NCBI GenBank assembly: GCA_029855935.1
Contig: JAGSHN010000023.1
Coordinates: 76,157 to 135,515 of the forward strand
Source of the DNA: Candidatus Thorarchaeota archaeon
GTDB taxonomy: Archaea; Asgardarchaeota; Thorarchaeia; Thorarchaeales; Thorarchaeaceae
DNA: 59,359 nt
Direction: 5' to 3'
Shown here: positions 31,482-59,359 of the stretch, piece by piece
Layout: each line of letters opens with the position of its first letter
How positions within the stretch are numbered: the stretch's first letter is position 1
Program-made: the position numbers and the translations under genes
The notes under the pieces: model-generated
Told to the model about the DNA's origin: nothing
The model's input: only the letters and a program-made list of their open reading frames with translations
The model's database searches: none

Positions 31482-31519
31482 CTGCTTCGGGATTGGGAAG
31501 GGGGTGTGGAGCAGGCGAG

Positions 31520-31765: not shown

Positions 31766-32812
31766 TCATCGATTCTCTATGCGGCCGAGCAGATCGTCTC
31801 TCTGGACCTCGCGTTTGAACCGGTCAACACTGAGGCGGCGTAGTCTCTCGTATCTCTCTCCATTCCAGTGCAGGAGATCGAATGAGCGGGTATGAGACAG
31901 CAGGCTACCAACAAGGAACGCCACGACGACAGGGCTTGCGAAGACGAGATACGGCCTCTGTCTCGCGGGGAGTATCTCAAGGATGTGTTCAATCACGATA
32001 GCAATGTACTCGGAGGCGTGCGTGATGTTCGGCGGGTCGATATGAACCCCTTCGTCAATCTCCACGACCACGTCATATCCTTCTCTGACGAGAACCGCCC
32101 TTGTCGGACGCGATACGGCAATGGAGATGGCCACTTTCCTCCCACGCAGATGCTCAGCGACCTCTCTGACATCCACCTGTCCGAGTAACGCTGAGAGCAG
32201 TACGTCGTCACCAGCGACTGGCAGGCCCCAGAACGTGAGACGTGTCTCGTCGCTCTCATCGCGCTCAAATGTCTTGTCAGACTGCATTGATCTGAAGCGG
32301 TCCCAGTTGATGTGCTCCATCTGTTCGTATCTCTGGCCATCCCAGTGTAGCAGGGTGTACTGGTCACTGTGGCCCAGAAGGTTTCCGATTATGAACGCAA
32401 CGACCGTCGGGCAGGCCAGTGCCAGAGCAATAGGCACTCTTGGTGCCGAAGACAGAGACGGTGCAACGCTTCTCTCAAGTTCCGTCAATCTACGAATGGC
32501 AGCGGCAGCGGATTCGGCCCACCAAGTCATCTTGGACGTGGGAATCTGACGGTCGGGCCTCCCAATCTCTCCTATGACATTGTAGCCAATCTTTGCTACT
32601 GCCGGAGTCGCATTCCTGCTGAAGTTGACAACGATGGCGGATGGTCGAGCGTCTGGATAGTACGCACGGACAGGGACTCGCCTTCGTCCCCTCAGCCAGT
32701 TGATCCCATCTCTCAGGCGCCACAGAACGTCTGAGATTTCAGCGGCTATTCCGACTACTGCGACCGGGTCGGGCAAGTTGACAAACCTCACATCCGAATG
32801 AGTTTCAGCCAT
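31766..32812 (-). CDS. Tandem SAVED-domain protein (putative cyclic-nucleotide sensor)
   Basis: 348 residues built from two similar halves of about 160. Each half ends with the same block: ALACPTVVAFIIGNLLGHSD then LLHWDGQRYEQM (residues 131-165), and VFASPVVVAFLVGSLLSHTR then LLHWNGERYERL (290-324). Each half also has a preceding strand (VVNFSRNATPAV; ISIAVSRPTRAV) and a long helix. The P..vAF..G..L.......W.G..Y pattern is that of SAVED domains, the CARF-derived sensors that bind cyclic oligonucleotides in CBASS Cap4 and in type III CalpL. No protease, nuclease, TIR or membrane domain is attached. It lies 41 nt after a CARF protein gene, probably in one operon. Possible roles are a ring nuclease, a sponge, or a sensing subunit for a partner. 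Confidence 0.7.
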   Translation of the reverse strand: MAETHSDVRFVNLPDPVAVVGIAAEISDVLWRLRDGINWLRGRRRVPVRAYYPDARPSAIVVNFSRNATPAVAKIGYNVIGEIGRPDRQIPTSKMTWWAESAAAAIRRLTELERSVAPSLSSAPRVPIALALACPTVVAFIIGNLLGHSDQYTLLHWDGQRYEQMEHINWDRFRSMQSDKTFERDESDETRLTFWGLPVAGDDVLLSALLGQVDVREVAEHLRGRKVAISIAVSRPTRAVLVREGYDVVVEIDEGVHIDPPNITHASEYIAIVIEHILEILPARQRPYLVFASPVVVAFLVGSLLSHTRSFDLLHWNGERYERLRRLSVDRFKREVQRDDLLGRIENR

Positions 32813-32853
32813 AGATGTCCTGTCTATAAGTGATTGGTATACGAGTGGTGATC

Positions 32854-33825
32854 CTATCCCCCTGAGGAGCGATGGAGGCTGGCTCTGGTCTCCCCTTCCG
32901 ACCTATCATCATCCGTGCCAGTGCCATAGTCTCTCCGAGCAGCGTCATTCAAAGCCAACCCTGTCGCACCAGTGAGAAACTCCTTGATTCGCGAGACGAT
33001 GTGATTCAGCGGCGGGTCGAATGCCCCCGCGATCTCCGCGTCGGACACCTGGCTCAGGAGATCCGTGAGAAGCTCGGTGGCCGCTTCTGAGAGCGTTCTC
33101 CACTCCATTCTGTTCAGCCGCTCCAGATGGTCGCTGATGCCTCCGACTGAGAGACTCGTCGGTTCGGAGTATGATAGGGCCGTGCCGAGATCTCGAAACA
33201 GACGCGCGAGCCGACGGGTCGGCTGAGCATCGGCAAAGGCTGCTACAGCCACGGTCCACTCGATGAATGTGACGAAGGGCGTGAGATCAATGAGAGCGAA
33301 GTCCCCTCTTGCGGACGACTGCTCTGCGCTCAGGACTCTCTCAATTGACATGTCCTCTTGAGTCACGATGTAGGAGAGTGCGGCGAATGTTGCCCACTGC
33401 TCGGTCTTGTCTGCTCCTGTCACATCCACAACAAGTCGACAGCGAGTCCCTCCGAGAGCTGTCTCCTTCAGGACGGTAATTACGGTATCAACAACGTCTA
33501 GTACCCCTGCTCCGCAGGCCTCCCAGCCCTTCTCCACCATCGACCACGTACCCACGTGTCCGTCCCGTCTGAGTCCCTCCAGCTCGTCTTGAAGCGCTCC
33601 ATATGTAGTAGGAACTACCAGCAAAGCTACATCAAACGGCCCAAACAATTCCGCTATGGCTGCACTCGAGTAGCGAGTCCTGCAGACAGTGTCCGGACTG
33701 GCAGGCCACACATAGTCGACCGGTCGGCGCGCGACATCATCCTCAAAGCTTAAGAGAATACGAATCGTGCCATTCGGAGGGTCCACCCTCCTACCGAAAC
33801 CAGTCTTCCGCTTCACCTCAATCAT
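32854..33825 (-). CDS. Csx1-type CARF protein lacking the HEPN nuclease domain
   Basis: 323 residues. A Csx1/TM1812-type CARF domain is visible: IRILLSFEDDV (first strand), ELFGPFDVALLVVPTTYG, then LVVDVTGADKTEQWATFAAL in the position of the DITHGFRS ligand motif, and DLTPFVTFIEWTVAVAAFAD, the family's V.DLTPF...IEWA.A motif. A helical part follows (LEEL-type helices to about residue 290). The R-x4-6-H catalytic motif of Csx1 is absent, and the end (TGTDDDRSEGETRASLHRSS) is low-complexity, so the protein is about 100 residues shorter than nuclease Csx1. The ligand loop (THG to TGA) is also altered. It may bind cyclic oligoadenylate without cutting RNA. The gene is divergent from csa3 and co-directional with the SAVED gene. 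Confidence 0.75.
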   Translation of the reverse strand: MIEVKRKTGFGRRVDPPNGTIRILLSFEDDVARRPVDYVWPASPDTVCRTRYSSAAIAELFGPFDVALLVVPTTYGALQDELEGLRRDGHVGTWSMVEKGWEACGAGVLDVVDTVITVLKETALGGTRCRLVVDVTGADKTEQWATFAALSYIVTQEDMSIERVLSAEQSSARGDFALIDLTPFVTFIEWTVAVAAFADAQPTRRLARLFRDLGTALSYSEPTSLSVGGISDHLERLNRMEWRTLSEAATELLTDLLSQVSDAEIAGAFDPPLNHIVSRIKEFLTGATGLALNDAARRDYGTGTDDDRSEGETRASLHRSSGG

Positions 33826-34352
33826 AGACTACCACGTCCCGCGTTAGATTAACCTGCCCTCTGGTGCAGGCATAATGCACCGTCCCTGTTCCGCCCCTCG
33901 GCCACAAATTCCTGCTCTCTGCGTCGAACATCTACGTGACCTGCGTCCCAGCCCTGTTACGGGAAACGCAGCCCGACATTCGCCCGTGTTGTGGGTCTTC
34001 GTAGTTTCCACGGAGGGCCGATGCGTATGAGAGACGCAGGTGGGCCGACGATTGGGTCCCTATCACGGGCAAGTAGTGTCGTGAACCGCATCGCTGTATC
34101 ATTGTGCGATTTCTTGAGATTGAGAGAGTCAGACCGTCCAGGCAAGAAACAGCCGAAAATGACAATAGTAGGTTAGAAAAAAAGGGGTGTAGGACCAGCA
34201 ACGCTGGTCCGCTACAGGCAATAGCCAGAGATGTCCGGACGAGCCTACTCAGACCACGGTGGGTCGACGGGCTCGTCCGGCCAGTAGTGACCGATTGCAC
34301 CCAACATTGTTATCGGGCATAATATGACTCAAAGGAAGAAGAAACAGAACGA
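33826..34352. other. Divergent intergenic region with a perfect hairpin
   Basis: No gene is supported. GGACCAGC (34192-34199) and GCTGGTCC (34203-34210) form a perfect 8-bp stem with a 3-nt loop and could be a factor-independent pause or a structured leader element. CATAATATG (34318-34326) is a TATA-like candidate for the csa3 transcript about 100 nt ahead of its start. Confidence 0.45.
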
Positions 34353-34424: not shown

Positions 34425-35111
34425 CTGGCAAAGGAAACAATTCTGATTGCGACACTCGGTCGCAATGAACAGGGGCGAATTGACTTCGTCCTGAGAAAGC
34501 GGGCGGCTGATAGGCTCGTCATACTGTACACTGACGAGATAGAGCAAGACGCTCGTCGGATCAAAGAGGAGATTCAGAGGTCCGGTTCACTCCCGGTCGA
34601 CCTAAGACGCGTCGAGCCGTGGAGCTTTCACAACGTCCTGTGTGAGGCTGTCAAAATTGTCAATCAGTACCCGAAGGCAACGTTCACGTACAATCCCTCG
34701 CTGGGAACCCGCATTATGAGCGCGGCCCTGTACGCAGCTGCGGCCTTCACAAAGTCTGTTCTCTTCCTCGTCAAGGAGGACGGTAGAGGCCGCGCCGTCG
34801 AAGTCGTGAACGTCTTCCCTATCACTAGGCAATCGCTGAGTGCTCCTAAGAAGAGAATACTTGCCGTTCTGGCCGAGCGCCGGCGCGCGGCGAAGAGCGA
34901 AGAAGAGCAATGGTTTCCCTCTATGGGGGCGCTGGCGAAAGCCGTGAATCTGTCCCGGTCATCCACATCTGACCACATCAAGGTTCTGAGCGATTGGGGC
35001 TACGTGGAGGTCGATGAGGGCCGTCCGACCAGAGTCCGTTCGAAAGAGCTGGGCGAGGCCGTCCTTGAGATGGCTCGCAAATGGAAACGGGACAGGGATG
35101 CAGACAGGTGA
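34425..35111 (+). CDS. csa3: Csa3-like CARF-winged-helix regulator, CTG start
   Basis: The frame is open from 34422 and gives about 228 residues. The CARF part begins KETILIATLGRNEQGRIDFV; YNPSLGTRIMSAALYAAAAF is the ligand-binding loop and following helix. From about residue 160 a winged helix follows: FPSMGALAKAVNLSRSSTSD, HIKVLSDWGYVEVDEG. This is the layout of Csa3, which regulates cas genes and adaptation in archaea and binds cA4. No ATG, GTG or TTG occurs in frame before the CARF loop; CTG 34425 has AGGTG seven nt upstream and starts exactly where homologous CARF domains begin. An ATG at 34716 would delete half of the CARF domain. The 3' end overlaps the next gene by 14 nt. Confidence 0.78.
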   Translation: MAKETILIATLGRNEQGRIDFVLRKRAADRLVILYTDEIEQDARRIKEEIQRSGSLPVDLRRVEPWSFHNVLCEAVKIVNQYPKATFTYNPSLGTRIMSAALYAAAAFTKSVLFLVKEDGRGRAVEVVNVFPITRQSLSAPKKRILAVLAERRRAAKSEEEQWFPSMGALAKAVNLSRSSTSDHIKVLSDWGYVEVDEGRPTRVRSKELGEAVLEMARKWKRDRDADR

Positions 35112-36774
35112 AGCTGCCCTGACCGACCCCAGCATAGCCCGAACCGAGACGGCTCTGAGGGACCTGTGGAGAGAGACCCTGCGAAGGTGTTCGGAGCGCT
35201 TCAGTCTGGAAGAGAGTCTCGCATCACTTGAGATCGTGATCGACGATGCAACGGGATCTCTGGCCTGGCCTCAATCGTGGAATATTGAGGTGCAGCTCCG
35301 AGAGGACACTGTGATGATTCCGGATCTCACGTCGACAGCGGCCCCCCTGATACGCGGTCTTCTCGCAAGAGAGGCCCTTCGACTGATGCTCCCAGCTGGC
35401 GTCGTTGATGACAACGTTGTCTTCGACGTTGCCTGCGAATTCGGAAGGCAAAACCTGCGCGGACAGCTGGAGCAGGAGTGGACCGAGCGCTGGCGGGCCT
35501 CCAGCGAGTCAATCCGCCTGCCCACAGGGGCCGTCTATGACGCCATTCGCATATTTGATCAGCTTGAACGAATGGAGGGGTCGCGTGCACTGGACAACCT
35601 CGTGAACGCGATTGCCAAGTTCGCACGTGCTGGTGTGACACTCTCTCTGGACGACTGGGTGCGGTACCTGATGGGCTATGTGATAGAGTTCACCATTCCT
35701 CTGAACAGAATCGAGATTGCCGTTGCAGATGCCCTTCTACGTGATGCGAGTACCACACGAGAGGAGATTGCTGCCCGTCTTGGGATGACTCCAGACTGGA
35801 TTGGCAAAGTGGTACAGAGGATGACCGCCCGCGGACAGTTGAGGCTGTTCGAGCGGCTCTCGCTCCGTGCCCTCAACATTCGCGTACAGCATATTCTCAT
35901 AGAGCCAGCAGTTGTGAGTCAGGCCGAGGGTCTGGACTTCTTCAGGAGCTGTCCCTTTCTGTATTCGTCGTGGAGGGTCATAGGCGGTCGAGGCGGGATT
36001 CTCATCACTCTTGCAGTTCCTGACAATGACCACAATCTGCGCGCGGTCAGAACAGCTGTCAGACGTGTCGCACGGTCAGGATTCACTCTACAGACCTTCG
36101 ACCGCGTCCGCGCTGCGCGACAGTACTGTTTTGACTACTACGACACAGAGACGGCTCGGTGGAGAATCGACTGGTTCTCGCTGTGGCTCGCGGCCAGACA
36201 TATCAGCAGCGGCGGCAATCAGCGCCTACCCACACTGGAACTGCCAGCCCCTCCCGAGCCGCTACGCTACATCGACAACACCGACGCGCTCCTGCTCTCA
36301 GAGTTCCAAGCAGGCACCACGACCATCCGCGGCCTCAGAGACAAGATACGCTGCCGGACATCTGCCGTCGTCGAGAAGATGACAAAGTTTCGAGATACAC
36401 GAGTCCTCGTCCAGATGTACGAGCTCAGGCACGCCGGGCTCACCGCTGACTCACTCGTCATAGTCGAGGCTGACCGCGGTAAGGAGATAATGGGCCATCT
36501 GGCACTTCGCCTCCCGCAGACATACGTCGAGTCCACCGAGAAGGGGCCAATGCTGTTCAGGGTCACCCTCCCGGCTGACGGCGTGACCAGACTTGCCAAG
36601 ATAGTCGGAGACATTGTCCCCGAACCGCAGCAGATCCACCTACTCGACAGTCCGTTGTACGGGGGATGGAAGCTCGGGGCCTTCATCGAGGACTGGAATT
36701 TCTACCACGGCACGTGGGCGCCCCACCCCAACATTGACACGTGGCTCGAGGACATCGAGAGAAGACTGTTCTGA
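35098..36774 (+). CDS. Large double winged-helix protein, unknown, coupled to csa3
   Basis: 558 residues from ATG 35098, which overlaps the end of csa3. An N-terminal domain of about 190 residues (TSTAAPLIRGLLAREALRL, DNVVFDVACEFGRQNLRGQL) precedes a first winged helix (ADALLRDASTTREEIAARLG, then TPDWIGKVVQRMTARGQLRL). An Lrp/RAM-like beta-alpha-beta domain follows (ILIEPAVVSQAEGL, RGGILITLAVPD). A second winged helix (DNTDALLLSEFQAGTTTIRG, then RTSAVVEKMTKFRDTR) leads to a second RAM-like domain (DSLVIVEADRGKEIMGHLAL). It is not a Cas protein I recognise. The layout suggests a duplicated Lrp-like regulator. Its coupling to Csa3 suggests both are made in equal amounts or act together on CRISPR genes. 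Confidence 0.65.
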   Translation: MQTGEAALTDPSIARTETALRDLWRETLRRCSERFSLEESLASLEIVIDDATGSLAWPQSWNIEVQLREDTVMIPDLTSTAAPLIRGLLAREALRLMLPAGVVDDNVVFDVACEFGRQNLRGQLEQEWTERWRASSESIRLPTGAVYDAIRIFDQLERMEGSRALDNLVNAIAKFARAGVTLSLDDWVRYLMGYVIEFTIPLNRIEIAVADALLRDASTTREEIAARLGMTPDWIGKVVQRMTARGQLRLFERLSLRALNIRVQHILIEPAVVSQAEGLDFFRSCPFLYSSWRVIGGRGGILITLAVPDNDHNLRAVRTAVRRVARSGFTLQTFDRVRAARQYCFDYYDTETARWRIDWFSLWLAARHISSGGNQRLPTLELPAPPEPLRYIDNTDALLLSEFQAGTTTIRGLRDKIRCRTSAVVEKMTKFRDTRVLVQMYELRHAGLTADSLVIVEADRGKEIMGHLALRLPQTYVESTEKGPMLFRVTLPADGVTRLAKIVGDIVPEPQQIHLLDSPLYGGWKLGAFIEDWNFYHGTWAPHPNIDTWLEDIERRLF

Positions 36775-37080: not shown

Positions 37081-37155
37081 ATGCGAAGGGGAGCGGAGAA
37101 GGCAGCCGTTTGTCACAGCGTGAACATACCACGGCCTAGGGTGTCCGTATTATGA
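37081..37155 (+). CDS. 24-codon leaderless upstream ORF overlapping csx1
   Basis: ATG 37081 lies about 25 nt downstream of the TATA box at 37048-37057, the position for a leaderless start. The frame codes for 24 residues (MRRGAEKAAVCHSVNIPRPR and four more) and its TGA overlaps the ATG of the nuclease gene (ATGA at 37152-37155). It is too short for a fold. Its geometry suggests that ribosomes entering at the transcript end terminate on, and re-initiate at, the nuclease start. Chance is possible: no homolog or codon bias can be tested here. Confidence 0.4.
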   Translation: MRRGAEKAAVCHSVNIPRPRVSVL

Positions 37156-38852
37156 CTAGGGTATTGGTTACTTCACTCGGCGCGCCGTCACGCGGCTACT
37201 CGTTGAGCACCTACCGCCTTCACAACTCGGACACTGCTCCTTGGCAAGGTAAGTTCGCGGGACTGGCTGTTCGGGACCTATTGGGACCCTTCGACAACTT
37301 GATTGTCCTTGTCACCGAGAGATCAGAGAAACACCTTGCTGAGTTCAAGAAAGCAGCGGGAGTCAGACAAGCAAGGCGTGTTCCGGTTCCCGAGCCCCTG
37401 ACAGAGGGTGATCAGTACAGTGCCATTGACAAGATTGTCGGTGCTGTGGAAGAGATTGCAACTTCTGATCTCCCGGATATTCGCATAACCCTCGACATAA
37501 CCTTCGGGTTCAGATCTCAGCCGCTCCTATACTTTGCCGCGCTCGCCTTCTTGAAGGAACTTCAAGGGGCTGAAGTGGAACACGTTGTTTATGCTCACCG
37601 GAAAGACCCCGCCAGGGACGAGTACGAGATTGTCGAGCTCACGCCGGCCTACGAGATGATTGACTGGGCATATGCCGTCAGAACCTTTGTAGATTCCGGT
37701 GATACGGGGTACTTGGCAAGAATCTTGGACCGGAGGGTGCAGATGCTACGTGCTAGAGGAGAACCTTTCAAGACGGTAGATGACATTCGCAAGTGTCTGA
37801 GCGGCTTCTCGAACCTCGTTGGTGCGGCATTGCCGATAGAGCTTGGTAACGCAGCCAAGTCACTTCTGGACAAACTCGATCGGCGCAGGGAAGAACTGCG
37901 AGAGGCCAAGATCTTCTGGCGACTCATTGACTCGTTGACTGAGGTGGGAGAGCAACTCTCGTGCTCCCTGCTTGCTAGGAACAAGGCCACGATTCCTCTG
38001 ACACGTGAGGTGATTGAACACCAGATTCGCGTCACCGAGTGGGCGCTCTCGCACAACCAGATTGCGAACGTCGTGGCCATACTCCGAGAGGCGGCAATCA
38101 ATCTGATACTGCTCAGGCGCTCGTCTGAGAGATGGCTTGACAGGAGCGAGAGAGAAGAGGCCGCCTATCTTCTATCGTCAATGGAGCGAATGATGAAGAG
38201 AGGGGACCTCAGAGACAGGCTGACCGACTTTCAACAGGAGTTCCTGGCTGCATTCGTAAGAATCAGAGATCACAGAAACAGGATGGCCCACTGTGGCTTC
38301 ACTGAGAACAGGGTCAGTCTTACAGGTCTGGACGATGACATCAGGAACTTTGTTGAAGTGCTGCGCAGGGGCCTTGACGAGCTACAGCTGCCGCAGCAGG
38401 GGACTGCACACATACTGGTGAGCCCGCTGGGGCTCTCGATTGGCAGCCTCTACACCGCTCTGTTGGCAACCCAGCCCGACCATCTCATCGCCCTTGTGAC
38501 AAAGAAGTCGCGGGGTTCATTGAAGTCGGTCCTAGAGGCCGCCAGTTTCCCTGAGTCCGAAACCACAGTCCTTGACGTCAAAGACCCTCACGCAGGCTTC
38601 GAGGAGATACCGTCGCTCGTCAGCAGGGCGGAGGACACGATCATCTCCGCGCGGGTGGTCATCGGGAACATCACGGGCGGGACCACAATGATGAGTGAGG
38701 CTGTCCGCGCGATTCTCGAGATGGCCAGATCGTACGCGGTACAGACCAAGACCTATGCTATGGTCGACAGAAGACCGTTGGAGGAACAGAAACGTAATCC
38801 CTTCGTCAAGGGCGAGGCGTTTCAGATCAATGGATGTGTGAATGATGACTGA
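37152..38852 (+). CDS. csx1: CARF-HEPN-CARF fusion ribonuclease (Csx1-type with a second CARF domain)
   Basis: 566 residues. The N-terminal CARF (1-190) is of Csx1/TM1812 type: MTRVLVTSLG, DLLGPFDNLIVLVTE, LDITFGFRSQPLLYFAALAF (ligand loop), and VELTPAYEMIDWAYAVRTFV. A helical HEPN domain (about 240-410) carries R375-N-R-M-A-H380, the R-x4-H active site. A second CARF domain follows from 418 to 566: AHILVSPLGLSIGSLYTALL, HLIALVTKKSRG and VVIGNITGGTTMMSEAVRAI, with the NITGGT ligand loop typical of Csm6/Can1-type CARF. Csx1 is an RNase switched on by cyclic oligoadenylate. The extra CARF may be a ring-nuclease module that turns the enzyme off, or a second sensor. It overlaps the can2-like gene by 11 nt. 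Confidence 0.87.
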   Translation: MTRVLVTSLGAPSRGYSLSTYRLHNSDTAPWQGKFAGLAVRDLLGPFDNLIVLVTERSEKHLAEFKKAAGVRQARRVPVPEPLTEGDQYSAIDKIVGAVEEIATSDLPDIRITLDITFGFRSQPLLYFAALAFLKELQGAEVEHVVYAHRKDPARDEYEIVELTPAYEMIDWAYAVRTFVDSGDTGYLARILDRRVQMLRARGEPFKTVDDIRKCLSGFSNLVGAALPIELGNAAKSLLDKLDRRREELREAKIFWRLIDSLTEVGEQLSCSLLARNKATIPLTREVIEHQIRVTEWALSHNQIANVVAILREAAINLILLRRSSERWLDRSEREEAAYLLSSMERMMKRGDLRDRLTDFQQEFLAAFVRIRDHRNRMAHCGFTENRVSLTGLDDDIRNFVEVLRRGLDELQLPQQGTAHILVSPLGLSIGSLYTALLATQPDHLIALVTKKSRGSLKSVLEAASFPESETTVLDVKDPHAGFEEIPSLVSRAEDTIISARVVIGNITGGTTMMSEAVRAILEMARSYAVQTKTYAMVDRRPLEEQKRNPFVKGEAFQINGCVNDD

Positions 38853-39882
38853 GAATGAAACTAATGTTTCCGAACTGATCCAGCTCGTGGGTTCCAACCC
38901 CCTCCCGCTGTACATAAGCGCTTCCACGCTCCGGCCGAATATCGTCTATCTCCTGTGTACTGACGAAACAAGGCCTGTGGCGGAACGGCTTCAACGAGAG
39001 TACAAGAAGTATAACATCGGCGCGGAACTACTGTTCATCAGAGATGCGACCAGCCCTCTGAGCTGCGAAACGGTGGTCACCGACAGACTGTCGAATGCCT
39101 TTCTCGACTACACTGGTGGCACCAAGGTCATGGCCGTCAACGTCTACCGTGCCTGGTCTCAGCACAGAGGCACTCTCAGCCGAGCGTGCTATGTGGACTC
39201 TGAGAAGGACGTACTCCGATTCGGTGATGGCAAGAATGTCCCGATCACTACGGAGCTGTCACTCGACCTGCTTGTCAGACTGCACGGTTTCCGGCTGTTG
39301 GAAACGAGGTCTTCCCTACCAGATGCCGATAGAATGCGTGAACTTGACAAAGAGGTCGAGAAGTATCTCGAAGCGATTGAACGCGGGGAGAAGACAGATC
39401 GAACTGCTGATGGGTTTTGGTTCGAGGAATGGGTCGCAGGCCTTTTGAAGCACAGACTTGATACACCTCTGAAGGTATATTGGGGAGCAAGAATTGCGCC
39501 ACCTCACGCGCCCGGGATGGAACTCGATGTTGTGGCCATAAGGGGCCACAAGACCTTCGTGCTATCCTGCACAATCGGACCCAAATATGATCCCGCAAAG
39601 AGAAAAGCCTTCGAGGTCATTCTGCGATCTCATCAGATTGGGGGCAATCACGCAAGGGCGGCTCTCGTTAGTCCCATAGACATAGTTATGAACCCAAGTC
39701 CGAGTCGGTGGAGCTCTGACGAACTCATTGACCAAGCCTACAATCTTGAGAGTAGTGTCAAGTCACACTGGAATGATCCTATCGCCTTCAAGGTGTTCTC
39801 CCGGTCAGACATTGAGGAGTGGGTGGGTTTCGCTGGGGCCAAGAAGAAGGTCGATTCTCTGAGGAGATGGATTGAGTCATAG
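38842..39882 (+). CDS. CARF-PD-(D/E)XK nuclease (Can2/Card1-like, DUF1887)
   Basis: 346 residues. The CARF domain (about 15-150) has NIVYLLCTDETRPVAERLQ and FLDYTGGTKVMAVNVYRAW, with DYTGGTK as ligand loop. A restriction-like domain (about 185-346) has GFWFEEWVAGLL (motif Glu), MELDVVAIRG (catalytic Asp) and KTFVLSCTIGPKYDPAKRKA, followed by FEVILRSHQIGGNHARAALV. In Can2/Card1 the third motif is E-x-K or S-C-K; here it is S-C-T, so the usual Lys is absent at that exact position, although Lys248 and Lys253 are near. The enzyme class nicks or degrades DNA and RNA after binding cA4 or cA6. It is in one operon with csx1 and sits just ahead of cas10. Confidence 0.85.
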   Translation: MMTENETNVSELIQLVGSNPLPLYISASTLRPNIVYLLCTDETRPVAERLQREYKKYNIGAELLFIRDATSPLSCETVVTDRLSNAFLDYTGGTKVMAVNVYRAWSQHRGTLSRACYVDSEKDVLRFGDGKNVPITTELSLDLLVRLHGFRLLETRSSLPDADRMRELDKEVEKYLEAIERGEKTDRTADGFWFEEWVAGLLKHRLDTPLKVYWGARIAPPHAPGMELDVVAIRGHKTFVLSCTIGPKYDPAKRKAFEVILRSHQIGGNHARAALVSPIDIVMNPSPSRWSSDELIDQAYNLESSVKSHWNDPIAFKVFSRSDIEEWVGFAGAKKKVDSLRRWIES

Positions 39883-39897
39883 GAGTGATGATGGTAA

Positions 39898-41520
39898 ATG
39901 GGTATTCTAACGCTTGTGGACCTGCTTGGAATTCAGAGGTTCATCTTTGAGTCAAACCGGCTGAGGGATATTCTTGCCGGGTCTATGCTCGTACGCAAAG
40001 CGAGTACTGAAATTCTCTCTGACTTTGCGCAACGTTCAGGCCAGGTTGTCTACAGTGCAGGAGGCACGGGACTGATCCGATTCGAGGCAATGGAGGACGC
40101 ACGGGAGTTTGCGGGAAGATATACTCGCTGGCTATTCGACAAAGCACCGGGTCTGGATGCTGCTATTCTCCACAAGAACTATGACGGCAATGGCGACTTC
40201 ATCGGAACCATAGAGGACCTGGGCGAGCAGATGAGTCTGCTAAAGCTTCGCCGCAGGCGACAACTCCCTCTCGGCGGTCTTGGCGTGACCGAGTCCTGCT
40301 ATGAGACCGGCCAGCCAGCTGTCGCCTTCGACCGGGAGAGTACCAACTCCGTGCCCGTCGAGCCTCCACTTCCAGACGATTCTCACCAGACAAGACCCAT
40401 CTCTGCATCTGTCAAGGCTCGACGCGCTGCTGACCTTGAGCGCCAGTCTGATGAGAGGTGGGTGAGGTTCCTTCCTAGCACTGAGGTTGAGATACGTGGT
40501 GAGGAGGTTCAACTTGAATTCCCGAAGGACCTAGACCACCTTGGGCGAAGCCGCACCGAGAAGAGCCTGATGGCAGTTGTCCACATAGATATGAACGATA
40601 CAGGTGAGAAACTGCGAAAGATGCAGGAAACCCTCAGGGGGGAGAAAGAGGAAACAGCAAGGGCGCGCATCAAAAGCACATCTGAGCAGATCAAGAACAT
40701 AGCTGCAAAAGCATTCAGGGTATGCGTCCAGAGAGTTGTGAAGTCAATAGTCGCTGAGAAGAAGGACGACGGTCGCCACTACTACATCCAGCACGCAAAG
40801 GCGACAAGCAAATTCGAGCTACTCTATCACGACGGCACTCTCTCATTGCCTCTACGCCCAATAGTCCTTGGAGGCGATGACCTGACCATAGTCTGTGATG
40901 CTCGTATAGCATTTGATCTTGCGGCAGCAGCTCTGGAGGAGTTTGAGAGAGGAAACATAGAGGGCGTCGGTCAGATCACTGGTTGCGCGGGCATAGCGAT
41001 AGGACGGACTCATACGCCTTTCTTCAGACTCTATCAGCGTTCCGAGGAGCTCTGCAGAAACGCCAAGCGGTGGCGCCACGCCGCAGACTATGCTGGTTCA
41101 GCCCTTGATTGGCATATCGAATATGGGCAGTCAATCGGACCAATCGAGGAGCTGCGTGCGCGGTACCTGAAACCCATTTCATCGGCATCACAGGAGTTCA
41201 CAACATACCGGTTCACATGTCGTCCATATCCGCTTGACTATGATGACGAGTATCTGTCTTGGAGATGGCTATCGGACACATTCCTGTGTGGTCCCAACGG
41301 CCTTCAGACCGGGTCCTGGGCCGAGCGTCGCAACAAGGTCTACAGGCTGAGAGAGGCAGCACTTGAGGGCGAGGATGTTGTCAAAGGACTGCTCGAACGA
41401 TGGAAGCGACTCGGCGACAATCTGAGGCTGCCAGCCGAGATAGGCAATGGGTACTTCAAGAATCAGACTCCGGTCCTTGACGCGGTGGAGCTGGTGAGTC
41501 TGTACTTCAAGTTGAGGTGA
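39898..41520 (+). CDS. cas10: Cas10, type III-D, without HD domain
   Basis: 540 residues. LTLVDLLGIQRFIFESNRLR opens the first palm; VVYSAGGTGLIRF (50-62) is its degenerate site. The second palm has SLMAVVHIDMNDTGEKLRKM with Asp231, and LGGDDLTIVC with GGDD at 325-328, the cyclase site that makes cyclic oligoadenylate from ATP. A remnant of the zinc-finger region is LGVTESCYETGQPA. The N-terminal HD nuclease present in most Cas10 proteins is absent and the protein is correspondingly short, so this complex should signal but not cut DNA itself. It heads the III-D effector operon 15 nt after the can2-like gene. Confidence 0.88.
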   Translation: MGILTLVDLLGIQRFIFESNRLRDILAGSMLVRKASTEILSDFAQRSGQVVYSAGGTGLIRFEAMEDAREFAGRYTRWLFDKAPGLDAAILHKNYDGNGDFIGTIEDLGEQMSLLKLRRRRQLPLGGLGVTESCYETGQPAVAFDRESTNSVPVEPPLPDDSHQTRPISASVKARRAADLERQSDERWVRFLPSTEVEIRGEEVQLEFPKDLDHLGRSRTEKSLMAVVHIDMNDTGEKLRKMQETLRGEKEETARARIKSTSEQIKNIAAKAFRVCVQRVVKSIVAEKKDDGRHYYIQHAKATSKFELLYHDGTLSLPLRPIVLGGDDLTIVCDARIAFDLAAAALEEFERGNIEGVGQITGCAGIAIGRTHTPFFRLYQRSEELCRNAKRWRHAADYAGSALDWHIEYGQSIGPIEELRARYLKPISSASQEFTTYRFTCRPYPLDYDDEYLSWRWLSDTFLCGPNGLQTGSWAERRNKVYRLREAALEGEDVVKGLLERWKRLGDNLRLPAEIGNGYFKNQTPVLDAVELVSLYFKLR

Positions 41521-41527
41521 TGATGAC

Positions 41528-42154
41528 TTGATTCCCCGTGAGTTGACGATTGAGCTCCTTTCTGACAGTGCATTCGGCGGCGACACTGGTGTCACTGTCG
41601 ATAGAGAGGTCACACACGATGAAACTGGTCTACCGTTCATTCCCGGCAAGAGTATTCGCGGGCTACTGAGAGATACCTGGCTATCAATGCATCACTGCTT
41701 CCCCTCATTGTGGGAGGCTGCTGCACGGGTGCTCGGACGACCCAAACGCCTTGACGAGCACTGTATCCTCCGCATAGGTGACGCTCTGCTCGAACCTGCT
41801 GTGAGGGAGTGGGTCCTATACGGCCTATCGAAGGGCACACGCCTCACATCCGACCTCGTTCTTGAGGCTCTCACCGACATTCGGACTCAGACGGCTGTTG
41901 ACCGTGTCAGAGGGGCACCGAAGAAGGGGACACTCCGTAGCACTCGTGTCATATTGAGAGGTGTGAAGCTGCGAAGCCATCTGGAATGGCTCGGAGAACC
42001 GACAAAGGACGACCTGCGCGTTCTTGCCCTCTGCGCTCTGGGTACCCGACAGGCCGGGTTGTCTTCCAACCGGGGACTGGGCCACATCAGAATGCTTCTC
42101 GACAACAGTTTGCACCAGACAAGGAAACTGGCCAGACTGGAGGGGGGACAATGA
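41528..42154 (+). CDS. csm3: Csm3-like Cas7 backbone subunit (RAMP)
   Basis: 208 residues, one RAMP fold. TGLPFIPGKSIRGLLRD is the first RAMP glycine/IPGxSIRG motif. IRTQTAVDRVRGAPKKGTLR carries the conserved D-x-x-x-G-x(n)L that in Csm3/Cmr4 provides the target-RNA cleaving Asp (here Asp126). GLSSNRGLGHIRM is the C-terminal glycine-rich loop. Start is TTG 41528, since the only ATG just upstream (41520) stops within three codons. Its stop overlaps the csx10 ATG. Confidence 0.85.
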   Translation: MIPRELTIELLSDSAFGGDTGVTVDREVTHDETGLPFIPGKSIRGLLRDTWLSMHHCFPSLWEAAARVLGRPKRLDEHCILRIGDALLEPAVREWVLYGLSKGTRLTSDLVLEALTDIRTQTAVDRVRGAPKKGTLRSTRVILRGVKLRSHLEWLGEPTKDDLRVLALCALGTRQAGLSSNRGLGHIRMLLDNSLHQTRKLARLEGGQ

Positions 42155-43773
42155 GTAACTACTATCCGTTTGTTCTGCATCTTACCGCCCCAGCAATCAT
42201 TCGTGATATTGGTCAGGACCCGTCCTGCGCGACGTCTATGGCATACATTCCGGGCTCAACGATACGCGGTGCCCTTGCCTTCCGGGTGAAGAAGACCGCT
42301 CCGGACCTATTCGATAGGATTGTGTTGTCAGATGAGGTTAGGTTCCTCAATGCGTACCCGTATGTCGATCAGAAGAGGTTCCTACCAACGCCAGTTTCCT
42401 ACGCACGAGAGAAATACAGTCACCCGGAGGTCATCTGGGACCGCGCAGCCCTCAATACACAGATCGCTGGTCTTGTTCCGATCAGTAGACCTTTCTGCTC
42501 CTTGGTAGAACCGTCGGTACTGCTGTACACGCCAGCGATGGGACGACGGCTACATCACTTGCGCGACCGAAAGGCGGGTCTTGCCCACGGCAAGAACGAG
42601 AATCAGGTAGGCACAGTCTACTGGAACGAATATCTGGAGAGCGACCAAGACTTCTGCGGGGCAATCTATGTTCGCGATGGAGCGGAGACCGAGAGAATTG
42701 TGGACACCCTCAGGGAGTGTACATCGCAGCCTCTGTTGCTCGGACGCGCGAAGCGCAGCGGCTACGGAGGCCTGGCCACTGTAGAGTGGCAGCAGCCTGT
42801 GCGGCGCGAAGTCCTTCTGACCGGGAGACGGGATGTTGCAAGGAGCATTGATACCGGAGCGTACTTCAGAGTCGTACTGCTATCTGACTGTGTTTCAGTC
42901 AATCACGAGACCGGCGAGATCGACCCGTACAGTTCCATCACCGAACTCCTAAGGCAACTCAAAGGACGTGCCGATCTGCAGGCGATATTCTCAGGTACAC
43001 GGCTCATCGGAGGATTCAACAGGACGTGGAGGCTTCAGACACCTCAGGAATGGGCTCTTGCTGCAGGCTCGGTTCTTGTTCTCCGGGCGACTGATACAAT
43101 TGATGAGCAGACAATCCTCGACATAGAAGATCGTGGTCTAGGACTGCGCAGAAATGAGGGGTTTGGCCGGATAGTGTTCCTAGCCCACGCCCGAAATCGA
43201 TTGTCACTCCAGACCGCCCCGACCGAGAAACCAGTAGCACCCGAAGGCAGCCCGCCAAAACTGGTACTTCAAATTGAGAAAAGAATCATCTGGAATCAGC
43301 TCGTCCGCCAGTGCCAGATTCGCGCGTCGATGATTGCCGACGGAGTGCAGAGGCTTCCCAGTCCGAGCCTGCTCTCAAGGCTCTTGAGCGCTCTCTATAG
43401 CAAGGACAATGCGCTTGCGACGCTCAGCGAATGGCTGGGAGATAACGAGGAAAAGCAGTTGAAGAGTGACGCGATGAAGCAGCTGAAGGTAGCAAAGTTC
43501 AGACCTCCCGCGTGCTCAAGCGGCACAAGGACGAATCTGCGAGAATTCATTCGAAAGATCATCAGGGCTGCCGAAGGGCGCAGAGAGAGGCCGAAACATC
43601 CTGAGGACCGCGAGTACTTCGAAACTATCATTGAAACCGAGAGAATCTCAAGGGAGTTCGGCATAAGGGACGAAGCAAGGACTCCAGAGACACGCGACCT
43701 TGTCCTGAAGTTCTTGGAGGCCTTTCTCGGAGCACTGGTGTACAAGGCCAACATCAGGAGGCGTGACAAGTAA
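42151..43773 (+). CDS. csx10: Csx10 (type III-D RAMP)
   Basis: 540 residues from ATG 42151 in an ATGA overlap. MSNYYPFVLHLTAPAIIRDI, then AYIPGSTIRGALAFRV, is the N-terminal RAMP typical of Csx10. VGTVYWNEYLESDQDFCGAI and LLLGRAKRSGYGGLATVEW follow. GLGLRRNEGFGRIVFLAH is the second glycine-rich loop and completes the family pattern. The last 150 residues are helical and charged (SDAMKQLKVAKFRPPACSSG onward), perhaps substituting for a small subunit (Csm2-like), which is not encoded separately. In III-D complexes Csx10 replaces Csm4/Csm5-like subunits and binds the crRNA handle. Confidence 0.87.
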   Translation: MSNYYPFVLHLTAPAIIRDIGQDPSCATSMAYIPGSTIRGALAFRVKKTAPDLFDRIVLSDEVRFLNAYPYVDQKRFLPTPVSYAREKYSHPEVIWDRAALNTQIAGLVPISRPFCSLVEPSVLLYTPAMGRRLHHLRDRKAGLAHGKNENQVGTVYWNEYLESDQDFCGAIYVRDGAETERIVDTLRECTSQPLLLGRAKRSGYGGLATVEWQQPVRREVLLTGRRDVARSIDTGAYFRVVLLSDCVSVNHETGEIDPYSSITELLRQLKGRADLQAIFSGTRLIGGFNRTWRLQTPQEWALAAGSVLVLRATDTIDEQTILDIEDRGLGLRRNEGFGRIVFLAHARNRLSLQTAPTEKPVAPEGSPPKLVLQIEKRIIWNQLVRQCQIRASMIADGVQRLPSPSLLSRLLSALYSKDNALATLSEWLGDNEEKQLKSDAMKQLKVAKFRPPACSSGTRTNLREFIRKIIRAAEGRRERPKHPEDREYFETIIETERISREFGIRDEARTPETRDLVLKFLEAFLGALVYKANIRRRDK

Positions 43774-43774
43774 G

Positions 43775-45232
43775 ATGAATCCAGCTGGGCAACTAGAGAT
43801 CGACAAGACTATGACAGATGATGGCGGCGTTCGTTCCATTGTGGCACGTTGGGTGATCACCGGAACACTAACGACGAGATCCCCTGTCCTGATTGGCGGT
43901 GCACTAGAGTCCGAGATTCTCGACAATGAGATTCTGCGGAGAAAGTACTCAGGCGAACCATTCATTCCCGGTGCTACGCTGGCTGGTGCTCTCAGAAACT
44001 ATCTTATGGATGTTCTTGCAGGATATGGCCAGTCGGACTCGGACATCGATATCTCGGACCTGTTTGGTTCCCCTCACGAGAGCGAGGACCCGTGGCAGAG
44101 TTCGCTCATAGCATTTGACGCAGTGGCCGAGAAATGCCATCTCACAGAGATTCGGCACGGTGTCGCGATTGACAGCCGAACTGGTACCGCAGAGGAACAC
44201 AAGAAGTTCACATACGAGGTTCTTCCGGCGGGGGTTGAATTCCCAATCCGATTTGACCTCGTCGTTGAAGCGTCCGATGACGAGATTGTTCTGTTGGAGA
44301 AGCTGGTCAAGGCACTGGAGGGCTTGGAGAATGGCGACATCCGATTCGGGATGAAAAAGAGTAGAGGTCTTGGTGAATGCGTCTGCAGCGACTGGCGGGT
44401 GAAGAGATTTGACCTCAGGTCAAAACAAGGGTGGCTTGACTGGGTTTCAACAGACCATCGAAGACCACTGGACGGTGATGCAAGGAAAAGCATTCGAGAT
44501 GCGGTTTCCAGCGAGCTGGACAAAACAGTAGAGGACCTCCCAGACAGGCGGCAACGAGCAGTCTTTCGTCTGGAGCTGGACGCTAGAGGTCCACTGATAA
44601 TTCGTTCACCGGGAACCAGCGCCGACGACCCCGACGCCTCACACCTACTCTCAGGGACTCAGCCCGTGGTCAGTGGAACGGCTCTGGCCGGGGTGTTGAG
44701 GACAAGAGCACTCCAGATTGCCCAGACAGTGAAGGGAGAGGATGGTCGCAGGCTCGTAGACAGTCTGTTCGGGCCGCAACTTGGTAGTGACACAGAGAAG
44801 GCACGCAGATCTCGTGTTCAGGTGACAGAGGCCAGCATAGAATCAGCAAAGAGCCTTCAGCCCACCCGTGTACGGATAGATAGGTTCACTGGTGGATCGA
44901 TGCACGGACTCCTGTTCACCGAGAGACTGGTCTATGGCGGAGAATTCTCTCTCACTATCGAGGTGAGGAATCCCACTGCGGCCGATATCGGACTGCTTCT
45001 GCTTGTGTTCAGAGACCTTGTGACAGGTCAATTGCAGATTGGGGGTGAGAGTTCCGTGGGACGGGGCATCACAACTGGGAGACTCACAATAGAAGAGATT
45101 CGACTCGATGATGAAACTTTGACCGGTATCACCGTGGCTCCGGGGGAAGTCTGCAAGGAGGCAGCACGGCTTGAAGAGTTCGTGGCAGAATTCCTCGGTG
45201 GGGCTGGCAAGAACGTTGGGGGTGAACGCTAG
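43775..45232 (+). CDS. Fused Cas7-Cas7 (double Csm3-like RAMP)
   Basis: About 485 residues with two RAMP domains. The first has VLIGGALESEIL, PFIPGATLAGALRNYLM, HGVAIDSRTGTAEEHKKFTY (catalytic Asp loop) and FGMKKSRGLGECV. The second has GPLIIRSPGTSADDP, PVVSGTALAGVLRTRALQIA, TRVRIDRFTGGSMHGLLFTE (second Asp loop) and IGGESSVGRGITTGRL. Fused backbone subunits are a known tendency of III-D and III-E lineages; here both active-site Asp loops are kept, so each half may cleave target RNA. ATG 43775 lies downstream of AGGAGG (43757-43762); the frame also has a GTG at 43763 overlapping csx10. It ends directly at the csx19 start. Confidence 0.85.
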   Translation: MNPAGQLEIDKTMTDDGGVRSIVARWVITGTLTTRSPVLIGGALESEILDNEILRRKYSGEPFIPGATLAGALRNYLMDVLAGYGQSDSDIDISDLFGSPHESEDPWQSSLIAFDAVAEKCHLTEIRHGVAIDSRTGTAEEHKKFTYEVLPAGVEFPIRFDLVVEASDDEIVLLEKLVKALEGLENGDIRFGMKKSRGLGECVCSDWRVKRFDLRSKQGWLDWVSTDHRRPLDGDARKSIRDAVSSELDKTVEDLPDRRQRAVFRLELDARGPLIIRSPGTSADDPDASHLLSGTQPVVSGTALAGVLRTRALQIAQTVKGEDGRRLVDSLFGPQLGSDTEKARRSRVQVTEASIESAKSLQPTRVRIDRFTGGSMHGLLFTERLVYGGEFSLTIEVRNPTAADIGLLLLVFRDLVTGQLQIGGESSVGRGITTGRLTIEEIRLDDETLTGITVAPGEVCKEAARLEEFVAEFLGGAGKNVGGER

Positions 45233-45838
45233 ATGATAGCAAATGTGGACTGTATGGGACTCGAGATTCGGGAACTTGAGAATCCAGACGACCTTCTCGA
45301 CTGGTTGCTAGGTGGGGATGAACCTGCAGATCAGTCACACCACGACCTTGTCAATGGACTGAGATGGGCACTGGTCTACACAACGGAGAGCATCGTGTGG
45401 GGAAAGATTCAGGATGGGAGATGGACGCTCGCGTCAAGCGTGTTCCCCGACACGCTCGTTTCACCGACCCACGACAATTTCCTTCGCGTCAGAATGTTTG
45501 GACCCCGTCTCGAGGTCAGAATATGGCGCCACGAGGAACAACTAATTGGTCGTGTCCTGGCTGATCAGCCCTCATTCCAAGGACCGGAGTGGCTTGAGCC
45601 GTGCGAACAGGAGTTCCTCCTTGTAGGCGACACCCTCGAAAGGTCCTCTGACAGGTTCTCGCTGGTCATCGGGAGGTCGGGCAGTCAGCAGGTTCTTCCC
45701 GTCAGTGTTGAGCCTGATACGTCCGGTAGACTCTCTCGTAGGCCACGCCTTGTCGTCAAACACTATTTTGGGTCCGACCCTGAAACAGGAGAAACAAAAC
45801 GGGTGGTTTCCCGGCTTGTTGATCTAATAGGAGGTTGA
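45233..45838 (+). CDS. csx19: Csx19 (type III-D subunit, TIGR03984-like)
   Basis: 201 residues. The family pattern is unmistakable: ALVYTTESIVWGKIQDGRWT (VIWG..), FLRVRMFGPRLEVRIWRHEE (RlFG...E...W), FLLVGDTLERSSDRFSLVIG, SQQVLPVSV, and RPRLVVKHYFGSDPETGETK followed by SRLVDL. Csx19 occurs almost only in type III-D loci and is thought to be a structural subunit; no catalytic motif is known. ATG 45233 follows the previous stop without a gap. Its presence is the main support for subtype III-D. Confidence 0.88.
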   Translation: MIANVDCMGLEIRELENPDDLLDWLLGGDEPADQSHHDLVNGLRWALVYTTESIVWGKIQDGRWTLASSVFPDTLVSPTHDNFLRVRMFGPRLEVRIWRHEEQLIGRVLADQPSFQGPEWLEPCEQEFLLVGDTLERSSDRFSLVIGRSGSQQVLPVSVEPDTSGRLSRRPRLVVKHYFGSDPETGETKRVVSRLVDLIGG

Positions 45839-48018
45839 TGATAGTGCCAGTGAAACATGGATGGCCTAGTGATTCGATGCGCCACAGGAAGCAAGCCAGC
45901 TCGCGCGGCGACAGAAGAGGCGGAAAGGAAAGACCCCCAAGGGGGAAGAAGAGTCAGGCCAAGCAAGGGCGTGGTCCGAATGGACACTCCAAGAGCAAGG
46001 ACCAACTCAAATCATCCACGGCGCCGTATAATTTCGTTCCGTTGCCGAATGAACCTATACTGGTGGACAATGACGAAAAGTTCTATGTCGACCTCAATGG
46101 CGAGAGACGCCCAGTGTGGCAAATTGGAGACCACTTTCACGCGGACCTGTGCCACGGCTGGATAGACGTTGAGATAGAGGCCGAAACTCCCATCTACATT
46201 CGCTGTGCACCGCCCCCTGACAAGACATTGCCGTCGGACGTTCTCAGGAATCCGGAACTTCAGCATTTCTATCATCACGGTGATCCGGACAGACCCGTGA
46301 TTCCCGGTAGCAGCATTAGAGGACCGATTCGCACGCTGTTTGAGATAGTGTCCTTCAGCAAGTTCATGCCGGGACAGCAGTTCCACGACAAGCAGTTCGT
46401 CTTCAGGGCAGTCGCCGACAGGTTCCCACTTGGGGACCATTATAGGGAGCTGATGACCAAGGGAGAGGTCCATGGGGGGTTCCTTGAGCGGAAGGGCAAG
46501 GACTGGTACATCCGTCCCGCAAAGGAGCCTCACGGGATAGCCATTGTGAAGATACCTGTGGATTGTGTTGCGCAGACGATGCCCAAAGGTGAGCACTGTG
46601 AGGTGCCAAGAGAGAAGTTGAAGAGTAAAGGCGCAGAGAATCTGAGGAGCATAGTGAGATACATTGATCTTGATTCGTACTTGGATGAGGACAAGAACAG
46701 CAACGAGATAGAGTTACCTGCGTCAACTAAACTGTTCGAATCGCCAGAAGAGGGTCTTGAAGAGATTCACATCCTGCAGTGTGGCGAGGCTCCGAAACGA
46801 GAATTCTGCTACGCTATCTTCGGGCCTGAGGAGAACGATGACAGGCTCATTCCGATACCGGATGACCTGTGGATGCTGTATGATGAAGACGCAAAGATGA
46901 AGCGTGGCCTTCCCACCCGAGTGCTCCGCGAGAAGCACGCGCTACTCTATCTGACACGCAAGGACTACCGTTCTGAAGAGAATCCGCATAGTCTGGTATT
47001 CTTCGGCCCCTGCCGGATGTTTCGGATACCCTATGACTCAAGGGTGTCAGACCACGTACCGGAGGCACTGAAGAAGCCCGGGGGGCTTGATCTGACCGAG
47101 GTGGTATTTGGTACCGCACGAAGGATCAATGACACAGACGGATCTGAGAGCAGCATTGCAATACGAAGTCGGCTGGTCTTTGAGGATGCATACTGGGTGG
47201 AGGGTGAAGACGGAAAGTCACCCTTCTATAAGAACAATGACGGAAGACGGGTCCCGCTAGTCCTGTCCGGTCCGAAGGCAACGGCATTTCAGCACTATCT
47301 CAAGCAGACACCGGAGGCAAAGGATGATCCGGAGGAGCATCTACTTGATTGGTCCGATGACGAGGCGGAGATACGAGGCTACAAGCTATACTGGCACAAG
47401 AAGGGAGTGACGGACCGCGAGATCTTCCTGCACGACAAGGCAGGAAGGCCTCTCCGAAGACCCCTGAAGAAACCCAAGCAACACACGGTGATTCGTCCTG
47501 TCAGGAGAGGGACGCGGTTCAGAGGAAGAATTCGTTTCAACAACCTGACGGATATCGAACTGGGAGCGCTGCTCACCGTTCTTGACCTCGGACCCACAAA
47601 ACGGCACAAGATTGGAATGGTCAAGCCCTACGGTATGGGGAGCGTGAGGATCACTCCCACGGTCTATCGCATCGACCCGGTTGAGTGCTACTCGTGCCTG
47701 TTTGACGAGGCGGGTCGTCTTGCGCGACCAGCAGCACGACTTGAGGACGGAGAGGTCACGAGGCTGAAGAGAGTGTTTGAGTCGTGGGTCACCCGCCGCG
47801 TGAAGACCGGGGGTCACAAGCTCTGGGAGATCCCGCGCTTGAAGAAGTTGTCAGTGATGCTGGAGTGGGACAACGCACCCGAGAGAACTTGCACGCGCTA
47901 CCTGGGACACAATCCAGTGACAAACCGGATGAACCTGCGACTCTGGCGTGACAGGCCTATCCTCCCCGACCCTGAGGAAGTGTCTAAGTGTAGAGCAAGA
48001 GCGCCTCAACGGGGCTGA
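45838..48018 (+). CDS. TIGR03986-type RAMP, large III-D Cas7-like subunit
   Basis: About 726 residues. A basic, disordered lead (RHRKQASSRGDRRGGKERPP) precedes the family start APYNFVPLPNEPILVD. RPVIPGSSIRGPIRTLFEIV is the RAMP motif, and HKIGMVKPYGMGSVRIT near residue 600 is the C-terminal glycine loop. Between them is a long insertion with HGIAIVKIPVDC and VVFGTARRINDTDGSESSIA, the latter resembling the catalytic-loop region of RAMPs. It is the last gene of the III-D operon. ATG 45838 overlaps the csx19 stop; GTG 45844 fits the GGAGG at 45830 slightly better. The Arg/Lys-rich N-terminus probably binds RNA. Confidence 0.82.
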   Translation: MIVPVKHGWPSDSMRHRKQASSRGDRRGGKERPPRGKKSQAKQGRGPNGHSKSKDQLKSSTAPYNFVPLPNEPILVDNDEKFYVDLNGERRPVWQIGDHFHADLCHGWIDVEIEAETPIYIRCAPPPDKTLPSDVLRNPELQHFYHHGDPDRPVIPGSSIRGPIRTLFEIVSFSKFMPGQQFHDKQFVFRAVADRFPLGDHYRELMTKGEVHGGFLERKGKDWYIRPAKEPHGIAIVKIPVDCVAQTMPKGEHCEVPREKLKSKGAENLRSIVRYIDLDSYLDEDKNSNEIELPASTKLFESPEEGLEEIHILQCGEAPKREFCYAIFGPEENDDRLIPIPDDLWMLYDEDAKMKRGLPTRVLREKHALLYLTRKDYRSEENPHSLVFFGPCRMFRIPYDSRVSDHVPEALKKPGGLDLTEVVFGTARRINDTDGSESSIAIRSRLVFEDAYWVEGEDGKSPFYKNNDGRRVPLVLSGPKATAFQHYLKQTPEAKDDPEEHLLDWSDDEAEIRGYKLYWHKKGVTDREIFLHDKAGRPLRRPLKKPKQHTVIRPVRRGTRFRGRIRFNNLTDIELGALLTVLDLGPTKRHKIGMVKPYGMGSVRITPTVYRIDPVECYSCLFDEAGRLARPAARLEDGEVTRLKRVFESWVTRRVKTGGHKLWEIPRLKKLSVMLEWDNAPERTCTRYLGHNPVTNRMNLRLWRDRPILPDPEEVSKCRARAPQRG

Positions 48019-58911: not shown

Positions 58912-59359
58912 GTTTGAATCGGACTAGAAGTAGGGTTGAAACGCGCCCCACAGAACGGACAGTACGACACGTTCGGAGTGTTTGAATCGGACTAGAAGTA
59001 GGGTTGAAACGTAGGTCGTCACCACGGGGGGGCCTATGACCTTTCTCAGTTTGAATCGGACTAGAAGTAGGGTTGAAACCAGGACAAAGGTGCTACTACG
59101 CGAGGCGCTGGACCTGTTTGAATCGGACTAGAAGTAGGGTTGAAACCAGCTCGCGCTCAATCACGAGCACGGGCTCTTGAGCACGTTTGAATCGGACTAG
59201 AAGTAGGGTTGAAACGACAGTAGGGCAGATGTTCGAGAGAGCAGTGTCTGCAGTTTGAATCGGACTAGAAGTAGGGTTGAAACGAATCAAGGAGCCAAGC
59301 ATAGAAGCAGAGAAGCAGAGTTTGAATCGGACTAGAAGTAGGGTTGAAACGTGATAGTC
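58912..59359 (+). CRISPR. CRISPR array 3 (7 repeats visible, runs off the right edge)
   Basis: Repeats begin at 58912, 58980, 59049, 59116, 59185, 59253 and 59320, identical in type to array 2 (AGAAG loop version). Six complete spacers of 36-38 nt plus the start of a seventh are in the window. No repeat shows decay, in line with this being the leader-proximal part. Reading the spacer-repeat boundaries on the minus strand gives open frames of repeated Phe-Asn-Pro words, which are artefacts. Confidence 0.97.

Follow-up and report, generated by a model that had tools for sequence, protein, structure and literature searches.

A protein of 348 amino acids (P0001), encoded near a type III-D CRISPR locus in the window analysed here (the whole stretch of 59,359 nucleotides, from an Asgard archaeon), is a single SAVED-type domain made up of two CARF-like halves. 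It appears to be the fused form of a gene pair, since the two halves are encoded by separate genes in three related genomes. P0001 is proposed, with a probability of about 50%, to be one cOA-binding SAVED-type domain formed from two joined CARF-like paralogues that damps signalling by sequestration or slow cleavage, the adjacent P0002 being a separate, in-place derivative of Csx1.

The open reading frames of P0001 and P0002, reported by the sequence-only reading that preceded this analysis, are both present on the minus strand and are separated by 41 nt, with a CRISPR array on one side of the two genes and a Csa3-type regulator on the other (Table 1). The type III-D locus with a GGDD Cas10 and two nuclease effectors, also described in that reading, was likewise recovered: Cas10d with GGDD occurs together with Csx10/Cas5, three Cas7 proteins and Csx19, and the two effectors correspond to P0003 and P0004. 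A type I-B operon is located further right of the III-D genes.

Table 1. Features of P0001, P0002 and the neighbouring type III-D genes in the window
Feature	Coordinates	Strand	Basis
P0001, 348 aa, effectorless SAVED-type protein with two similar CARF-like halves	31766..32812	-	Pfam, NCBIfam, PADLOC, Foldseek
P0001, low-confidence N-terminal helix, residues 1-45	32678..32812	-	Model and hydropathy
P0001 half 1, CARF-like, residues ~46-182; orthologues are separate genes in G009, G014 and G015	32267..32677	-	
P0001 half 2, CARF-like, residues ~187-340; orthologues are a second separate gene in G009, G014 and G015	31793..32254	-	
First P..VAF..G..L...LHW.G..Y block, P0001 residues 135-162	32327..32410	-	Motif scan
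Second P..VAF..G..L...LHW.G..Y block, P0001 residues 294-321	31850..31933	-	Motif scan
P0002, 323 aa, Csx1-type CARF protein without HEPN active site and without second CARF	32854..33825	-	PADLOC, alignment, G015 orthologue
Csa3-type CARF-wHTH regulator, divergent from P0002	34425..35111	+	NCBIfam cas_HTH 3.8e-12; PADLOC CARF3/CasR/Csa3
P0006, HTH-containing partner gene of Csa3	35014..36774	+	Csa3 adjacency in relatives
P0003, Csx1, CARF-HEPN-CARF with RNRMAH	37152..38852	+	PADLOC 2.7e-84; motif
P0004, CARF-PDDEXK nuclease (Can2/Card1-like)	38842..39882	+	PADLOC Csx1 2.6e-45, CARF4--CARF_PDDEXK 3.1e-35
Cas10d, GGDD at residue 325	39898..41520	+	PADLOC Cas10d 1.7e-99; motif
III-D effector genes in the order Cas7, Cas5/Csx10, Cas7, Csx19, Cas7	41528..48018	+	
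CRISPR array, last repeat ~283 bp from the P0001 stop codon	30500..31483	not assigned	

Some further features of the locus were observed. The CRISPR arrays of the window (30500-31483, 48508-49494 and beyond, and 58986-59359) carry two repeat variants with a two-base difference, ACTACAACTAGGG and ACTAGAAGTAGGG, one of which is found beside the SAVED and CARF genes and the other beside the I-B genes. No ATG, GTG or TTG is present at the expected start of the Csa3 frame. The start given in Table 1 is inferred, and the earliest one listed, at 34716, is an internal ATG; the gene may have an unusual start codon or an altered 5' end. P0006 could be given no family name; it is an HTH protein whose gene immediately follows Csa3 in G009, G015, G020 and the window, and its true start is probably near 35098. 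A candidate structured small RNA lies between Csa3 and Csx1 or P0002 in three genomes (window 34168-34295, minus strand; L030 10560-10660, plus strand; L032 2619-2735, plus strand), reads toward Csx1 or P0002, has a hairpin and a T-run at its 3' end and shows fold z-scores of -4.1, -3.1 and -2.7 in the three genomes. The window copy has no Rfam match above the gathering score, and no tRNA was found at the loci of the relatives.

The P..VAF..G..L block occurs in P0001 at residues 135 and 294, a spacing of 159 residues that agrees with the separation of about 160 noticed earlier, and the two halves are 33% identical over 120 residues (BLAST E-value 2e-17). The local score of half against half is 158, compared with 30 +/- 4.7 for the shuffled sequence (z about 27), and the internal repeat is therefore far above chance. 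Matches to the SAVED models of Pfam (E-value 2.3e-5, score 24.6 against a curated cut-off of 26.2) and NCBIfam (3e-7, score 30.2 against 33) fall slightly under the curated cut-offs, and the best PADLOC match by E-value is SAVED4--SAVED_TM (1.9e-12). No domain other than SAVED was found in the Pfam, PADLOC and NCBIfam scans, in keeping with the earlier description of a SAVED-family protein without an effector. A direct sequence search with P0001 against the PDB gave no match, and detection required a profile built from the halves; this profile matches AcrIII-2 (PDB 9r8s) twice, one match per half, with an E-value of 2.5e-12.

Structure prediction of the 348-residue protein, which had been suggested as a check, yielded CARF-like halves and SAVED matches. 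The AlphaFold2 model, based on a three-sequence alignment, has a pLDDT of 60.5, a pTM of 0.46 and an unreliable half-to-half placement, and contains two copies of a single alternating strand-helix layout. The best 50 Foldseek matches of the whole model are all SAVED proteins, headed by AcrIII-2 (5.2e-7, 295 columns), with almost all of P0001 superposed on a 235-residue SAVED domain; the TM-scores are low (0.27), which is attributed to the relative placement of the halves in the model. With an rmsd of about 3 Å over about 110 residues, a model of a single half (155 aa; pLDDT 68.4 overall and near 85 in the core) superposes on one half of the Cap5 SAVED domain. A canonical SAVED domain is itself built from two CARF-like halves (PMC12751052), and since each half of P0001 matches one half of AcrIII-2, P0001 represents one SAVED domain and not two. 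The tandem SAVED protein of the sequence-only reading (two full domains, four CARF-like units) was rejected, as the whole of P0001 aligns to one 235-residue SAVED with one block per half, and both the profile and Foldseek assign the two blocks to the halves of one domain. The N-terminal helix is present in all half-1 proteins and is moderately hydrophobic in P0001 at residues 17-31; 15-residue stretches in the half-1 N-termini have a mean hydropathy of 1.7-2.2.

In G009, G014 and G015, genomes that each represent a different other genus of the family, half 1 and half 2 are encoded separately, by genes of about 155 amino acids arranged head to head about 150-440 bp apart with intact frames (starts inferred in G014 and G015), and no conserved operator was seen in the region between these divergent genes. 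Identity within half 1 is 35-45%; the nearest relatives of half 1 of the window protein are the half-1 genes, and those of its half 2 are for the most part half-2 genes. The genes flanking the split pairs are not common to the relatives, and include in G009 what we take, by reading of the sequences, to be a DNA methyltransferase and a type IIG restriction enzyme, and in G014, on the same basis, presumably an MgtE-like transporter and a subtilase. Since the neighbours differ between the genomes, no conserved effector gene accompanies the split SAVED. The split genes of G009 and G014 are found outside a type III operon, the pair in G014 being about 8 kb from a III-B operon, and the pair in G015 is on a short contig. 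No description of a split SAVED was found in the literature searched, the key 2020 census being outside that search.

A single-half SAVED protein of 202 amino acids with a hydrophobic N-terminus was observed in a genome that has Cas10 and belongs to another family (L031, G075:C9, 1945-2553, minus strand); it matches PADLOC SAVED4--SAVED at 2.7e-15, and its gene adjoins two that, by reading of the sequences, are presumably PIN-domain-like and PLD-like. A viral origin or anti-CRISPR nature of P0001 was considered and rejected, no relative being found in viral contigs, phages, plasmids or PHROGs; this is a weak absence, as the queries were a few patterns and single sequences.

Split and fused SAVED genes are found only in Cas10 genomes. 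The half-SAVED profile matches five of the 228 Asgard genomes surveyed, and the Cas10 palm is present in 51 of the 228, including all five carriers (hypergeometric p 5e-4; 0.018 at genus level); the genomes are incomplete and related, and the co-occurrence is to be read as an association, not proof. Classical SAVED domains are thought to be derived from paired CARF domains. Half 1 and half 2 of the present proteins match each other with E-values of 1e-15 to 1e-27, as against 0.009 between the halves of AcrIII-2, and group apart from the classical SAVED halves with moderate support in a 76-column tree. This tree places independent duplication 13 log units ahead of fission of a classical SAVED, and on these 76 columns fission is not rejected by the AU test (p 0.10 and 0.14). 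Tentatively, a half-SAVED gene may have been duplicated into heterodimer partners that became fused in the window lineage, so that SAVED would have evolved anew, repeating the presumed classical step.

P0001 and P0002 are adjacent in the window only, among the genomes surveyed. A conserved two-gene module of SAVED and CARF proteins, as put forward earlier, was rejected: the search of other genomes revealed no second adjacent pair, the split SAVED genes of the three relatives are away from any such CARF gene, and the short CARF gene of G015 adjoins Csa3 and a CRISPR array with no SAVED gene beside it. P0002 resembles Csx1 (CARF-HEPN) in its N-terminal CARF, which matches the PADLOC models CARF_HEPN (4.5e-12) and Csx1/Csm6 (7.7e-11) and is thus of the CARF2/Csx1 type, and in its position by Csa3. 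It differs from Csx1 in the absence of the HEPN R-x4-6-H (motif scan), which corroborates the sequence-only reading on this point, and of the C-terminal (second) CARF of the relatives (alignment); the CARF_HEPN match stops at profile position 248 of 376, before the active site. The DxTHGFR ligand motif (DxTHG) is replaced by DVTGADK in P0002 and by DLTGTDG in its G015 orthologue, P0003 having DITFGFR.

In G009 and G020, the gene that diverges from Csa3 and its P0006-homologous neighbour is a full Csx1; in the window and in G015 a short CARF protein is found there, the G015 orthologue having an intact frame of about 300 codons and 28-29% identity; no further close relative of P0002 was found within the phylum. 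Since relatives hold a full Csx1 at the same Csa3-divergent position, P0002 is best read as a Csx1 derivative in the ancestral place in which the CARF fold has been kept and HEPN lost. The occupation of the full-Csx1 position, together with the loss of HEPN, the second CARF and DxTHGFR, would also suit a functionless, decaying Csx1 remnant that lies beside P0001 by chance, an explanation that is possible but not favoured, as neutral decay would not preserve the intact short frame at the same position in G015. Csx1 CARF domains dimerise, and P0002, in which the CARF fold is largely kept along with part of the linker, might act as a dominant partner, its CARF pairing with that of P0003 and holding the HEPN pair inactive; the two proteins are only about 21% identical, and such a role is considered quite improbable.

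For the comparison of active sites, the AcrIII-2 sequence was taken from viral contig L035, on which the published residues R96, K99, H128, Q178 and S194 fit one offset. The loop after strand 1 in P0001 is SRN in half 1 and SRP in half 2 and contains no histidine; the H128 match was placed by eye, as the automatic alignment misplaces that AcrIII-2 strand. The SCP of AcrIII-2 corresponds to ASP in half 2 of P0001 (S194 to A), R174 of P0001, invariant in half 1, takes the place of K99, and R96 has no clear counterpart. Catalytic residues of the AcrIII-2 type are thus absent from P0001 at H128 and S194 in this distant alignment, and the protein may still bind cOA. In the proposed mechanism, two paralogous CARF-like proteins would have been joined into P0001, whose halves would form a SAVED pseudo-dimer and stack head to tail around cOA made by the III-D Cas10, probably cA4. 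With no effector attached, P0001 would damp the Csx1 and CARF-PDDEXK effectors through sequestration, as a Csx15-like sponge, or through slow cleavage like that of Crn5/AcrIII-2. The window locus has a Cas10 with GGDD and carries CARF effectors that such damping could switch off, and effectorless damping has precedents within the superfamily in AcrIII-2/Crn5 (PMC12751052) and Csx15 (PMC13148439). By analogy, P0001 most likely limits signalling as a cOA-binding protein with no effector, and a buffering or degrading role, for the SAVED protein alone, is the best functional guess.

Because P0001 has not kept the catalytic His and Ser of AcrIII-2, it is more likely to be a sponge than a ring nuclease. 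Ring nuclease activity from a rearranged active site, in which arginine replaces histidine, would accord with the kinship to AcrIII-2 and CalpL, both ring nucleases, with the SHD in the strand-1 loop of half 1 of G009 and G015, and with the absence of a DUF1874-type (Crn2/AcrIII-1) ring nuclease from the genome, Crn1, Csx15, Csx16 and Csx20 being outside this genome-wide search; lacking equivalents of H128 and S194, P0001 is distinctly unlikely to be such an enzyme. P0001 may instead be a sensor subunit: filaments formed by split or fused SAVED in response to cOA would recruit or activate an effector in trans, for example via the half-1 N-terminal helix. To our knowledge, all SAVED effectors act through ligand-driven oligomers; moreover, the half-1 proteins retain an N-terminal helix absent from AcrIII-2, and S-R/H in the strand-1 loop is conserved in nearly all members. 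However, no partner gene is conserved beside the split genes of G009 and G014, and a sensor acting in trans is considered rather unlikely. It is very improbable that P0001 is a membrane effector of the SAVED_TM type, its N-terminal helix inserting upon ligand binding: the top PADLOC match and the hydrophobic half-1 N-termini would be consistent with it, but the SAVED_TM match is limited to the SAVED part (profile positions 228-275 of 278), the hydrophobic stretches are short, that of P0001 contains E and D, and there is no full-length TM helix.

Among known families, the PADLOC model SAVED4--SAVED (104 positions), reportedly going back to an original description by Makarova in 2020, represents short single-half SAVED proteins and is matched by each half of P0001; it includes neither paired head-to-head half genes nor their fusion. 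AcrIII-2/Crn5 (PDB 9r8s, PMC12751052), also a stand-alone single SAVED of two CARF-like halves, is the best match to P0001 in both sequence and fold. It is virus-encoded, whereas P0001 is host-encoded near a III-D locus; its halves match each other at an E-value of 0.009 against 2e-17 in P0001, its H128 and S194 are not kept in P0001, and the relatives of P0001 are split into two genes. CalpL (Lon-SAVED; 7qda, 8b0r, 9eyi) has a SAVED4-type domain, binds cA4 and stacks head to tail (PMC11417357); P0001, in contrast, has no Lon protease, CRISPR-Lon profiles match it in the SAVED part only, and no CalpT/CalpS-like gene was noticed beside it. Csx15, likened to P0001 here by description, belongs to the CARF superfamily, lacks an effector and forms a dimer; its two subunits together resemble a single SAVED, and it can serve as a sponge (PMC13148439). 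It is a homodimer, whereas P0001 consists of two paralogous halves.

The occurrence of the same SAVED as split genes and as a fused chain makes the history of the fusion directly testable and its benefit measurable. A host-encoded, effectorless SAVED protein linked to type III CRISPR in Asgard archaea is, in addition, a candidate for a missing off-switch or sponge.
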